Of a stretch of 64,000 nt of DNA, positions 20,568 to 29,814 are shown piece by piece. Both the position numbers and the translations under genes were made by a program. The notes under the pieces are model-generated. The model searched no databases and was not told where the DNA came from. It saw only the letters and a list, made by a program, of their open reading frames with translations. The stretch spans positions 4,123,419 through 4,187,418 of the forward strand of contig NZ_CP053069.1 in assembly GCF_013003965.1 (NCBI RefSeq), read 5' to 3'. The stretch is from Usitatibacter rugosus (lineage in GTDB: Bacteria; Pseudomonadota; Gammaproteobacteria; Burkholderiales; Usitatibacteraceae). Position 1 is the first letter of the stretch, and the number at the start of each line of letters is the position of its first letter.

Positions 20568-21680
20568 TCAGGTCGCGGTAAACCGGTCGACGAAGCGACG
20601 GTCGATCCGGTCCTTCCAGTTCCACGCCCAGTTGCCCTCCCATCCCAAGGGGCCGTAGGCACCGATCGCGTGCTTGTGGCCCGTGGAGAGGAGCGCGAGG
20701 TAGTTGCGGCGCGTGCGGAATTCCGTGAGCGGGCCGCCGGCGAGCGCCGCGCGCAGGTTGGCCGCGAGCACCGGCCCCGCGCGCACGGCAAAGACGCCGG
20801 CCTTCGGCAGCGGATTGCGCACACGTGAAGCGCAGTCGCCCGCGGCGAAGATGCCGGGGTGCGACGTGGACTGGAGGTTCTCGTCGATGGCGAGGAAGCC
20901 CTTCTCGTCCGTGGCGAGGCCCGACTCGGCGAAGATCTCGGGCGCACCCGCGCCCGCGGCCCAGAGCGTGGCGCCGGATTCGAACTCGAGGTGGTTGTCG
21001 AGGCGAACGTAGCCCGCGCCCACTTCCGCCACCCCACTGCCGGCGTGCAGGCCGATCTCGTAGCGCGCGGCGTTGTGGATCGCGCGCTGCCGCACGCCCT
21101 CGTTGAACTCCGGCAGGATCTGCGGCGAATCGCTGAACACGCGCACGTGCGGCGCGTGGTTGTCGAGCTCGCGGCGCAGGCGATGCGCGATGGCGAACGC
21201 GATCTCCACGCCGCCCGCGCCGCCGCCCACGACGGAGACCGAGCCCAGCCCCTGGTCCTTCGCATGCGCGAGCAGCCGCATCCACCCGTTCACGAACTTC
21301 GCGAGCGGCCGCAGCACGAGGGCGTTGCGCTCGACGCCCTTCGCCGCGATGGCGGGACGCGAGCCGATGTCGATCGAGAGCACGTCGTAGGCCAGCACCG
21401 TGCCGTCGGCGCAGATCACTTCCTTCGCGTCGGGATTGATCAGGACGCCCAGCGTCTGCACGAACGACGCGTGCGCCTTGCCCGCGAGGCGCACGAGGTC
21501 GATGGAGCAGCGCTCGAGCGAGTAGTGCCCCGCGACGTAGCCCGGAAGCATGCCCGTGTAGGTGAGCATGGGCAGCGGCGTCACCATCGAGACCTCGACG
21601 TTCTCGTCGGGGTGGTGGGCGAGGTCCTCCAGCACGAAGAGGTGCGCATGCCCGCCGCCCAGCAGCACGAGGCGCTTCAT
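20568..21680 (-). CDS. FAD-dependent pyridine nucleotide-disulfide oxidoreductase (SelD-associated type)
   Basis: A 370-residue flavoprotein of the Ndh/FSP1-like superfamily. It opens with the FAD-binding GGGHAHLFVLEDLA (about residues 7-20), typical of the group often found fused or linked to selenophosphate synthetase (TIGR03169-type). The second nucleotide motif is VVGGGAGGVEIAFAIA (about 150), and the FAD closing motif is HPGIFAAGDCAS (about 285). It lacks the CxxxxC redox pair of lipoamide dehydrogenases. It is the last gene of the nine-gene operon from 29814 and overlaps DUF3047 (ATGA). The substrate is unknown; no selD is in the window. Confidence 0.85.
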   Translation of the reverse strand: MKRLVLLGGGHAHLFVLEDLAHHPDENVEVSMVTPLPMLTYTGMLPGYVAGHYSLERCSIDLVRLAGKAHASFVQTLGVLINPDAKEVICADGTVLAYDVLSIDIGSRPAIAAKGVERNALVLRPLAKFVNGWMRLLAHAKDQGLGSVSVVGGGAGGVEIAFAIAHRLRRELDNHAPHVRVFSDSPQILPEFNEGVRQRAIHNAARYEIGLHAGSGVAEVGAGYVRLDNHLEFESGATLWAAGAGAPEIFAESGLATDEKGFLAIDENLQSTSHPGIFAAGDCASRVRNPLPKAGVFAVRAGPVLAANLRAALAGGPLTEFRTRRNYLALLSTGHKHAIGAYGPLGWEGNWAWNWKDRIDRRFVDRFTAT

Positions 21681-22417
21681 CGCGCGGCCTCGATGCGAAG
21701 GTCGCCGAACCAGGCGGTTACGCTCCCGTGCGTCTGGTCGGTGTCGTTGCCGACCGCGACGCCGACGATGCGCGGCGTGGGTTGCGTCGTCACGCCCGCG
21801 AACGCGGCGCGGAAATCCGCATCGAGGTCCCGCGACTCGGCGGCCCACTTGCCCGCGCCTTCAGGACCGCTCCGCAGCACGATCATCCGCACGTTGCCGA
21901 CATGCGTGTTCGGCCGGATCGTGCCCACGGGCTGGCGGTTGTCCCAGACGTAGCAGATCGCCGCGGACGGCACGTCGCTGTGGAGGAGCCGCGCCAGCCG
22001 CACCTTGGTTCGCAGCCCGAGCGGAAGCTCCGAGAGCGGCAGGTCGAACATGACGTAGACCCGCGCCGCGTAGTCGTCGCCTTCGGGCCGCGTGAGGTCC
22101 CCGCCTTCGACGACGTGATCGATTTTCCAGCGCCAAGCGAGGCGCGGCTTGCCTTTCGGATCCACGTCCACGCGATGCACCAGCGATCCGCCGGCGGAGT
22201 CCGCATTGGAACGCAGAACGGTCGCACCGTCGTCGCGCACGAGCGTGAACTCGGGCGGCTTCAGGCGCGTGAGCTTGATCTCGTACCAGGACGGCGGAAT
22301 CGGCTGCGCGGGATCCATCGCGGAGAACGCCGTGATGCCCGCCGTGTCGACGGCGTGCGCCGCGAATGCAACGCCGGCCACGATGGACAGCACGGCAGCG
22401 CCCCGTCTTTGCGTCAC
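21677..22417 (-). CDS. DUF3047 domain exported protein
   Basis: A 246-residue protein with a signal peptide (TQRRGAAVLSIVAGVAFAAHA) and a DUF3047 domain. Recognisable segments are LKPPEFTLVRDDGATVLRS, KPRLAWRWKIDHVVEGGDLT, DDYAARVYVMFDLP and ICYVWDNRQPVGTI. The GTG start at 22417 overlaps the preceding glycosyltransferase stop as GTGA. The family has no known activity; it is periplasmic here and embedded in the ArsS-type operon. Confidence 0.85.
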   Translation of the reverse strand: MTQRRGAAVLSIVAGVAFAAHAVDTAGITAFSAMDPAQPIPPSWYEIKLTRLKPPEFTLVRDDGATVLRSNADSAGGSLVHRVDVDPKGKPRLAWRWKIDHVVEGGDLTRPEGDDYAARVYVMFDLPLSELPLGLRTKVRLARLLHSDVPSAAICYVWDNRQPVGTIRPNTHVGNVRMIVLRSGPEGAGKWAAESRDLDADFRAAFAGVTTQPTPRIVGVAVGNDTDQTHGSVTAWFGDLRIEAAR

Positions 22418-23058
22418 GACAGGACCTCGGGCAGCCTTCCCTCGAGCTGCAGGCGAGCGAAGTCCTCGGGACGGTCGACGTCCCAGCGCATCGGCAGCTC
22501 CTTGCACCGCACGCCGAGCTCCGCGACCCGCGTGCGCGTCTGGCCCATGACGGCCGAGGTGCCCCACGACACGCCCTCGAAGAGTGCCGGCAGCTTGCGA
22601 GACAGGGCGACCAGCACGTAGCCGCCGTCTTCCGCGGGAGCGAACGCCACGTCGTGCGTCGCGACCGCGGCCGCCGCGTCGCGAAGGTCGGACGGCTTCA
22701 GCACGGGGCAGTCGCTGCCGATCAGCACGACACGATCGCCCGCCGCGAGCCCGTGCTCGAAGGCGGCTGCCATGCGAGATCCCAGATCGTCGCCCTCCTG
22801 CACGTGCAGCGTGGCTCCGAAGAGCTCTGCGCAGCGGCTGAAGAACGAATGCGTTGCGTCCGGTGCGCACCAGAGCTCGACAGGACCGAGGCGGGATTCG
22901 ACCGCGGTGGAGAGTGCGCGGCGAACGAGGCCGGCATGCAGCGCGGCAGCGCCGTCGGCACCGAGCAGCGTGGCCAGGCGCGTCTTCACCAGCCCCGGCA
23001 CCGGCGCCTTGGCGAAGACCGCGACGCGGGCGCGCGCCTCAGGCGGCGCGGCCGTCAT
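22414..23058 (-). CDS. TIGR04282-type glycosyltransferase (arsenosugar-cluster family)
   Basis: A 214-residue protein of the GT-A fold family usually labelled arsenosugar biosynthesis glycosyltransferase. Conserved elements are VAVFAKAPVPGLVKTRL (nucleotide-binding start), VVLIGSDCPVLKPSDL (metal-binding Asp region), FAPAEDGGYVLVAL and the closing WDVDRPEDFARL. It overlaps the partner glycosyltransferase gene upstream by 20 bases. The donor and acceptor are unknown; pairing with the TIGR04283 enzyme is a constant feature of ArsS-type clusters. Confidence 0.88.
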   Translation of the reverse strand: MTAAPPEARARVAVFAKAPVPGLVKTRLATLLGADGAAALHAGLVRRALSTAVESRLGPVELWCAPDATHSFFSRCAELFGATLHVQEGDDLGSRMAAAFEHGLAAGDRVVLIGSDCPVLKPSDLRDAAAAVATHDVAFAPAEDGGYVLVALSRKLPALFEGVSWGTSAVMGQTRTRVAELGVRCKELPMRWDVDRPEDFARLQLEGRLPEVLS

Positions 23059-28850: not shown

Positions 28851-28851
28851 G

Positions 28852-29814
28852 TCAGGCCAGCGCCCCGCCGCAGCTGGAGCCTTGCCCCGCCGTGCAGCCG
28901 AAGCAGTGGTCGCGAACGACGATCGGGTTGCCGGTGAGGTCTTCACCCATGACGTCGCTCACGTGCGTGCGCTTGCGCCCCGGACGCACGAGCGGCAGCC
29001 CGAGCATCTGGTTGAAGTCGCAGTCGTAGAGGTAGCCCTGGTAGTCGATCGAGACCAGGTTGCGGCACATCACGGTGCCGAGGTTCTCGTCGCGATGGGC
29101 TCCGCGCAGGAGATCCATGTACGTGTTGAACTGGCCCTTCGTCACCAGCGTGGAGCCGAAGCGCTGGATCGGCATGTTGGCGAGCGTGTAGAGGCGGTTG
29201 AAGACGATGCCGAAGTGCTCGCCGAGGATGCGCTTGTAGTCGGCCTCGAGCTTCTCCTGCGACGGCGGCAGGCTCGGGCCCTGCGGGTTGTAGACGAGGC
29301 TCAGCTCCAGGCCGCTGCCCTCGCGGCCGTAGCCCAGCTCGTTCAGCACGCGGATCGCGCGCACGCTCTTCTCGTAGACGCCCTTGCCGCGCTGCCGGTC
29401 GACCAGCTCTTCGGTGTAGCACGGCAGCGAGGCGACGATCTCGACGCGATTCGCCGCAAGGAAGGCCGCGAGATCTTCCTGGCCCGGCTCGAAGAGGATG
29501 GTGAGGTTGCAGCGGTCCATCACCTTGACGCCGAGCTTGCGCGCCTCGGTGACCAGGTGGCGAAACACCCGGTTCATCTCGGGGGCGCCGCCGGTGATGT
29601 CCAGCGTACCGGCGCCGCTCGCGGCGAGATAGGCCAGCACCTGGTCGGCGGTCTCGAGCGACATCGTTTCGGTGCGCGTCGGGCCCGCGTTCACGTGGCA
29701 ATGCAGGCACGACTGGTTGCACACGTATCCCACGTTCACCTGGACGATATCCAGCGCATTGCGCCGCAAGGCGGGGAAGTTGGACCGGGCTAGGAGGGGA
29801 AGCGTGGCGTGCAT
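28852..29814 (-). CDS. arsS: ArsS-type radical SAM protein (Cys-rich C-terminus)
   Basis: A 320-residue radical SAM enzyme. The SAM cluster motif is VGYVCNQSCLHCHVNAGP (CxxxCxxC, about residue 32), followed by TLDITGGAPEMN and a second cysteine-rich region: VMCRNLVSIDYQGYLYDCDF and the end DHCFGCTAGQGSSCGG. This matches the arsenosugar biosynthesis radical SAM family (DUF3641), proposed to attach a deoxyadenosyl group to arsenic in arsenosugar formation. It is the first gene of the nine-gene operon 20568-29814, divergent from kynA. No arsM methyltransferase is nearby, so the true substrate may not be arsenic. Confidence 0.88.
   Translation of the reverse strand: MHATLPLLARSNFPALRRNALDIVQVNVGYVCNQSCLHCHVNAGPTRTETMSLETADQVLAYLAASGAGTLDITGGAPEMNRVFRHLVTEARKLGVKVMDRCNLTILFEPGQEDLAAFLAANRVEIVASLPCYTEELVDRQRGKGVYEKSVRAIRVLNELGYGREGSGLELSLVYNPQGPSLPPSQEKLEADYKRILGEHFGIVFNRLYTLANMPIQRFGSTLVTKGQFNTYMDLLRGAHRDENLGTVMCRNLVSIDYQGYLYDCDFNQMLGLPLVRPGRKRTHVSDVMGEDLTGNPIVVRDHCFGCTAGQGSSCGGALA

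Follow-up and report, generated by a model that had tools for sequence, protein, structure and literature searches.

A stretch of 64,000 nucleotides from the genome of Usitatibacter rugosus (NZ_CP053069.1, positions 4,123,419 to 4,187,418; hereafter the window) carries nine closely packed minus-strand genes at positions 20568-29814, the first of which encodes an ArsS-type radical S-adenosylmethionine (SAM) enzyme. We tentatively favour the reading that these genes are an arsenosugar-type operon in a form that lacks the arsenic methyltransferase ArsM and is fed by imported methylated arsenic; here we infer the ligand, the product and the role of the second gene. That second gene encodes a protein of metallophosphoesterase fold, which we label MPE. 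Through its link to importers in related bacteria we regard MPE as the most informative part of the operon, a point overlooked in the initial annotation of the stretch, which was made from the sequence alone.

ArsS (28852..29814, minus strand) matches TIGR04167 at 454 bits, against a cut-off of 300, over profile positions 2-303 of 303. Enzymes of this type were reportedly described by Cheng et al. in 2021 as adenosyltransferases to arsenic. The substrate of characterised members is dimethylarsinous acid. The genome of the window is a single contig of 4.56 Mb, estimated to be 100% complete, and no ArsM is recognisable in it: model NF008823, which has a cut-off of 263 bits, gave a best match of 80.6 bits that covered positions 77-181 only, and an ArsS-linked ArsM from a relative, used as a query, scored at most 34 bits anywhere in the genome. 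Model NF038099 ('arsenosugar ArsM') was not run genome-wide; because its member at locus L073 scores 104 bits on NF008823, another member in this genome would probably have shown. The initial annotation had reported arsM missing from the operon, and the profile and relative-query searches extend that absence to the whole genome.

To place the operon among its relatives, we compared ArsS loci in three samples. The order draw, 200 genomes of Burkholderiales, yielded 64 ArsS loci in 63 genomes, the window included. The nearest-80 set holds ArsS loci of named contigs, the best 80 of at least 592 pattern matches, some of them fragmentary; 79 of the 80 contain an intact ArsS (L043 is the one that does not), and leaving out the near-duplicates L034, L054, L056 and L075, which were also kept out of an alignment of 139 ArsS rows, gave 76 deduplicated loci. 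The phylum draw comprised 397 genomes of Pseudomonadota, 84 of them with ArsS. In the order draw, ArsS was called present above the TIGR04167 cut-off and ArsM, in genome counts, at 108 bits or more; the gene content of loci was scored by profiles made from those same loci, and the reporting limit for Pfam and NCBIfam was E ≤ 0.001. Among the matches listed, the nearest ArsS loci come from metagenome-assembled genomes labelled Burkholderiales or Betaproteobacteria.

ArsM was found in 24 of the 200 order-draw genomes, 19 of which also have ArsS, and this association holds within families (19 seen against 11.75 expected). Because ArsS and ArsM associate within families and in the phylum draw, where 60/84 ArsS genomes have ArsM, we take ArsS to be tied to arsenic. 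In the order draw, no ArsM was seen in 44/63 ArsS-bearing genomes; the ArsM-free form is therefore common in this order, not everywhere. Nine borderline ArsM places in six order-draw genomes were rejected as ArsM, with at most 70 bits against at least 228 for ArsS-linked ArsMs. These counts bear on the possibility, which we consider unlikely, that the operon makes arsenosugars in the ordinary way, with dimethylarsenic supplied by a methyltransferase of this genome that went unrecognised and with MPE and importers as arsenic-handling accessories. The genome does encode many class I SAM methyltransferases, ArsM is the usual companion of ArsS across the phylum, and ArsS is the same in both settings, all of which suits such an enzyme. 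However, each of the 44 order-draw genomes would require one, and the candidates here do not resemble ArsM outside its core. Nine candidate methyltransferase open reading frames (ORFs) were scanned: three pass UbiE, UbiG and BioC models, and the others fall below the cut-offs of methyltransferase models. Their ArsM-type matches are limited to the SAM-binding core, and on an ArsM profile they score at most 61 bits, against at least 228 for the ArsS-linked ArsMs, which are partly the seeds of that profile.

We found one type of ArsS in both settings. Cys 32, 36 and 39 of the CX3CX2C motif are kept in 139/139 aligned rows, as are Cys 250, 265, 304, 307 and 315, the last three of which make up the C-terminal cysteine (or selenocysteine) motif. 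On trees, MPE-linked and ArsM-linked ArsS proteins are intermingled, and in the alignment no column separates the 64 MPE-linked from the 18 ArsM-linked rows at the 70% level. One genome, G126, carries both, an ArsS with MPE at one locus (L137) and an ArsS with ArsM at another (L160). We accordingly rejected the idea that the ArsM-free setting has an ArsS subfamily of its own, and because the settings are mixed on trees, lack a separating column and occur together in one genome, we favour a difference in supply and not in chemistry.

MPE (27888..28850, minus strand; the start at 28850 was our choice, and the longest ORF starts at 28946) matched no Pfam or NCBIfam model within the reporting limit, and its assignment rests on a predicted structure. 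The AlphaFold model, built from a 39-row alignment, has a predicted local distance difference test (pLDDT) score of 93.8 and shows a calcineurin-like metallophosphoesterase fold. Foldseek matched it to the archaeal structures 1nnw and 2gju and to SapH, an asymmetric Ap4A hydrolase/phosphodiesterase (3qfm, 3qfn), at 6e-12 to 3e-10, and the predicted fold agrees with these over its whole length; alignment to SapH with VIA-align gave Z 21.4 and a root-mean-square deviation of about 3 over 237 residues. Identity to SapH is only about 17%, and MPE differs from it in a G-L-Y motif I, a GHxH motif that ends in Cys and four invariant cysteines. The two-metal ligand set of the superfamily includes a D-x-H motif I and a G-H-x-H motif V. 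Of the superfamily's motif set, MPE keeps D60, N87, H158 and H199, but the complete set is not present: the motif I position, placed by eye, reads G-L-Y, and the last His of GHxH is replaced by Cys. In a weak hhalign match to Escherichia coli YfcE (probability 2%), SSHTCLP of MPE aligned on yGHTHLP. The motif I residues are invariant or nearly so in the aligned rows, and Cys 5, 101, 103 and 201 (numbered in the trimmed protein) are invariant in 40/40 rows and in 15/15 further MPEs, 13 of which come from stretches without ArsS. From these patterns one metal site looks to have been dismantled while the thiols stayed fixed. The initial annotation had called the protein a degenerate metallophosphoesterase; the predicted structure backs the fold, and the metal-ligand motifs are indeed incomplete. 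Searching PDB sequences with an MPE profile returned a single weak match, to a lipase (E 0.41), regular expressions picked up no canonical phosphoesterase in the loci that could be aligned with MPE, and RefSeq annotates one member of the family as 'hypothetical protein'.

In the order draw, MPE occurs in 32/63 genomes with ArsS and in 1/137 without. Wherever a locus encodes a sodium/solute symporter (SSS) or a PhnD-like binding protein, MPE is there too, both in the order draw (10/10, among 64 loci; Fisher 8e-6) and in the deduplicated nearest set (19/19, among 76; 1e-6). Conversely, all loci with a PiT permease hold ArsM (5/5 of the 64 loci, 7e-6; 3/3 of the 76, 0.002). When importer and MPE were compared by independent pairs on a FastTree tree of the 139 ArsS rows, 5.8 pairs went the same way and 0 the opposite way (median p 0.03, range 0.016-0.25). 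Within loci of full context, MPE and ArsM are seldom together (0/47 and 2/56 loci; one-sided p 0.025 and 0.008). MPE was also found at 14 places distant from ArsS, 10 of them in order-draw and 4 in phylum-draw genomes. All but that of G111 were analysed. Of these 13 stretches (9 from order-draw genomes, most of which carry ArsS at another site, and the 4 phylum-draw ones), six carry PhnD and PhnE genes, four carry SSS, two only other operon genes and one none. At L181 and L185, MPE overlaps an importer gene by 4 bases. As relatives pair MPE with importers, bacteria of this kind may take up ready-methylated arsenic.

Some of the MPE stretches from genomes without ArsS resemble the operon in other ways. 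At L185 (3977-9951), a VTT-flavoprotein gene, a gene for an Rv1681-like radical SAM protein (NF049973, 102 bits against a cut-off of 380), SSS and MPE lie together, and the radical SAM protein possibly stands in the position of ArsS. L186 and L187 are similar VTT-flavoprotein/SSS/MPE stretches, also from genomes without ArsS; the radical SAM protein was seen in L185.

The PhnD-like binding protein of the relatives, which the window lacks, passes TIGR01098 (phosphate/phosphite/phosphonate) and fails the PhnD model TIGR03431. Its nearest solved relative is the hypophosphite-binding protein HtxB (1e-52), with PtxB (2e-20) and PhnD (1e-17) well behind; unlike HtxB, it is linked to MPE and often to ArsS. 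Compared with the HtxB pocket, 19 of 20 rows retain the capping Trp, R178 and D206 and carry the changes N128S, F158H and M176Y/F, the twentieth being gapped. PMC6629693 treats this pocket as an 'HtxB-like' set, with phosphite as the expected ligand, and PMC5700983 reports no methylphosphonate binding by HtxB up to 10 mM. The wider pocket with its aromatic cap could leave room for a methyl group, and the His and Ser would suit a third oxygen; judged from these residues, methylarsonate, methylphosphonate and phosphite would each fit, and dimethylarsinate (DMA) is possible. According to PMC6426599, Pelagibacter imports DMA, and its phnD rises twofold on DMA. In our literature searches for carriers of methylated arsenic, this uptake and induction were all that we found; no bacterial importer of methylated arsenic with a proven role turned up.

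The same features raise an alternative, that MPE and the importers are a phosphorus-scavenging cassette for phosphite, methylphosphonate or a phosphoester and merely a frequent neighbour of ArsS. The phosphoesterase fold of MPE, the TIGR01098 match of the binding protein and the presence of MPE with a symporter in four genomes without ArsS are consistent with it. We nevertheless judge it improbable: 32 of the 33 MPE-bearing order-draw genomes have ArsS, an unrelated symporter replaces the ABC (ATP-binding cassette) importer at some loci, and the two motif changes in MPE argue against an ordinary phosphoesterase.

Several observations weigh against an operon supplied by imported methylated arsenic. 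More than half of the MPE loci have no importer (13/23 in the order draw and 23/42 in the deduplicated nearest set), and none lies in the window's operon or in the two same-genus loci L130 and L142. The independent pairs for PiT and ArsM, 3.6 the same way and 0 opposite, are too few for significance (median p 0.125). The exclusion of ArsM by MPE is not significant in genomes, where 7/32 with both ArsS and MPE also have ArsM (p 0.18), or in independent pairs (median p 0.6), and we do not claim the two as strict alternatives. MPE is rare in the phylum draw, with 8 genomes, and because 4 of these lack ArsS it is not bound to ArsS. Finally, the pocket of the binding protein also suits phosphite.

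Under the import reading, the pathway would run as follows. Methylarsonate or dimethylarsinate would enter the cell, in relatives through the symporter or the HtxB-like ABC importer encoded beside MPE and in this genome through a carrier that would have to lie outside the operon. The VTT-flavoprotein would reduce the imported arsenical, and MPE, via its conserved cysteines and remodelled metal site, would bind or process the imported compound. ArsS would then join 5'-deoxyadenosine to the trivalent arsenical. After loss of adenine, the TIGR04282 protein would activate the arseno-ribose and the TIGR04283 protein would transfer it, and the DUF547 protein, the DUF3047 protein and the VTT domain may act at the envelope. 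MTAP-like phosphorylases, encoded near some clusters (4/64 and 12/80 loci; that of L194 passes two cut-offs), would suit adenine removal. A bolder proposal, which we put forward as rather less likely, is that MPE founds an undescribed family, in which a metallophosphoesterase fold would have been converted to handle imported methylated arsenic by means of cysteines and would be produced along with dedicated organoarsenical importers (the symporter or the HtxB-like ABC system). Bacteria that lack ArsM would in this way build arsenosugars from methylated arsenic that other organisms have produced.

Gene order supports the operon as a unit. The order ArsS-MPE-VTT-DUF547-TIGR04283-TIGR04282-DUF3047-flavoprotein was found again, whole or partial and largely kept, across Burkholderiales, and because it recurs across the order we take the arrangement to be more than chance. 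Among the 64 order-draw ArsS loci, TIGR04283 occurs in 43, VTT in 41, TIGR04282 in 37, DUF547 in 26, MPE in 23, the TIGR03169 flavoprotein in 21, DUF3047 in 20, ArsM in 8 and patatin in 4. The nearest-80 set gave the corresponding counts for TIGR04283 (55), VTT (51), TIGR04282 (45), MPE (43), the TIGR03169 flavoprotein (25), DUF547 (21), DUF3047 (16), ArsM (11, or 15 at a lower score limit) and patatin (2). The operon genes thus accompany ArsS in other genomes, as their first interpretation as a set had supposed.

Patatin is the exception. The patatin-like phospholipase gene (26822..27877, minus strand; PF01734, 84 bits) is a lineage-specific insert in the operon: its four order-draw loci are the window, L130 from one of the two other same-genus genomes, L131 from the same family and L160, an ArsM-type locus from another family. 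At 4/64 and 2/80 ArsS loci, it was rejected as a core member. The initial annotation had suggested a lipid-linked or exported product; were it a lipid-linked arsenosugar, the patatin and the phosphoesterase would shape its lipid. The presence of patatin in a same-genus and a same-family genome (L130 and L131) and a weak match of the TIGR04283 protein to a lipid-linked sugar transferase family (NF058614, 21 bits) agree with that idea, but elsewhere MPE, which is more often accompanied by importers, is not tied to patatin. Because patatin is rare among ArsS loci, we find no support for a lipid product as a general feature, and for this operon too we think it improbable. Of that earlier interpretation, the ArsS-centred operon, its recurrent core and the lack of ArsM stood, and patatin with a lipid product as a general feature did not.

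Two plasmid-borne relatives show the gene set in named organisms. On the Burkholderia glumae plasmid NZ_CP023207.1, typed as conjugative (L194), ArsS-MPE and DUF547 lie on one side and MTAP-TIGR04283-TIGR04282-flavoprotein on the other; 47 Burkholderia plasmid records contain an ArsS relative. Plasmid p1 of Cupriavidus sp. KK10 (L195) carries PiT-ArsM-AhpD-ArsS-VTT-TIGR04283-TIGR04282-MTAP in a row, an ArsM-type form in a named isolate.

The last gene of the operon raises the question of selenium. It encodes a TIGR03169 flavoprotein (20568..21680, minus strand; 385 bits against a cut-off of 310), of a type otherwise fused to SelD; here the ORF stands alone, neither fused to nor near SelD. A genome-wide check for selD and senAB, suggested with the first interpretation, located SelD at C1:1524706 (429 bits), far from the operon at C1:4.15 Mb, and SenB at C1:4272178 (397 bits), about 120 kb from the operon and divergent from a SenA-like ORF; judged by sequence, these three are likely a selenoneine set. 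ArsS and the transferases might then act on SelD-supplied selenium, aided by the SelD-type flavoprotein. SenB is in fact commoner with ArsS (37/63 genomes against 22/137 without ArsS; within families p 0.006) and is found in 27/33 genomes with MPE (within families p 0.024). When only genomes with ArsS are compared, however, no link between MPE and SenB is left within families (27 observed against 26.4 expected, p 0.43), so a seleno-product is not needed. Within the operon TIGR03169 alone points to selenium, the SelD and SenB genes are distant, ArsS associates with ArsM, and no ArsS column sets the MPE-linked proteins apart from the ArsM-linked ones. We regard a selenium compound, one of the options suggested earlier, as very improbable. 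The operon shares with the selenoneine pathway SenA-SenB-SelD a genome and a SelD-type flavoprotein, but contains no selenium gene proper.

Compared with the known ArsM-ArsS arsenosugar pathway, the operon is alike in its above-cut-off ArsS, in its TIGR04282 and TIGR04283 proteins, whose NCBI names include 'arsenosugar biosynthesis', and in having ArsM-bearing relatives; it is unlike in that no ArsM is recognisable and that MPE occupies ArsM's place in the locus. ArsL is a different radical SAM enzyme from ArsS. In two order-draw genomes without ArsS, ArsM adjoins a radical SAM ORF of 42-47 bits on TIGR04167 (G014:C1:2947471-2949077 and G137:C1:823013-824613), perhaps an ArsL-like arsinothricin pair. 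Radical SAM chemistry on arsenic is documented for oxo-arsenosugar formation, where such an enzyme adenosylates arsenic (PMC12159101), and for the arsinothricin cluster arsQML (PMC8552651), in which the radical SAM gene lies beside ArsM, unlike in the window.

The ArsS pathway itself is known; an ArsS pathway without ArsM and with an undescribed protein family would be new, and a search of open-licence literature, with subscription papers outside it, found no description of an ArsM-free ArsS operon with MPE. To our knowledge, most steps of arsenosugar making after ArsS have no assigned gene, and the candidates offered by the operon and its relatives are few: MPE, the two importer types, TIGR04282 and TIGR04283 and, in some clusters, the MTAP-like phosphorylases. 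If the import reading is right, arsenosugar formation would be shared between arsenic-methylating species and scavengers of methylated arsenic, and ArsS counts in metagenomes could not be read as arsenic methylation.

All nine genes lie where the initial annotation placed them, on the same strand, and profile scans agree with its families for all but MPE, whose fold is supported by the predicted structure. Neighbouring genes overlap by up to 20 bases or are separated by up to 28, lengths that depend on start codons we picked: gaps of 1 base between ArsS and MPE, 10 between MPE and patatin, 28 between patatin and VTT, 11 between VTT and DUF547 and 3 between DUF547 and TIGR04283, then overlaps of 20 bases between TIGR04283 and TIGR04282, 7 between TIGR04282 and DUF3047 and 4 between DUF3047 and the flavoprotein. 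This spacing suggests transcription as a single unit; a scan of 20300-30000 gave no sigma-70-like promoter.

The fourth gene (24565..26793, minus strand) encodes a VTT membrane domain fused to a pyridine-nucleotide-disulfide reductase (PF09335, PF07992 and Pyr_redox_dim) with a CLNTGC active-site pair. It barely passes the dihydrolipoyl dehydrogenase model TIGR01350 (409.8 against a cut-off of 408.8 bits), a model that does not include the VTT fusion, and it falls below the cut-off for the mercuric reductase MerA (TIGR02053, 399 against 454 bits). The next encodes the DUF547 protein (23744..24553, minus strand; PF04784, 88 bits). Its model has a pLDDT of 88.8, and all 31 rows keep His136, Cys141 and Cys146 (numbered in the trimmed protein); it had no PDB structure match at E ≤ 0.001 and no PDB sequence match, and perhaps represents an undescribed fold or active site. 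It is followed, all on the minus strand, by the TIGR04283 family glycosyltransferase (23039..23740; 284 bits against a cut-off of 182), the TIGR04282 family CofC-like transferase (22414..23058; 196 bits against 134) and the DUF3047 protein (21677..22420; PF11249, 201 bits). Judged from their translations, the DUF547 and DUF3047 proteins each have an N-terminal signal-like stretch.

Elsewhere in the window, an Rfam scan found nothing but one tRNA (38796-38868). On the plus strand at 29814-33684, where ORF translations were read by eye, a tryptophan 2,3-dioxygenase-like gene (29887-30726) lies divergent from arsS, and a CYTH/CHAD-like ORF and a polyphosphate-kinase-2-like ORF lie downstream of it.

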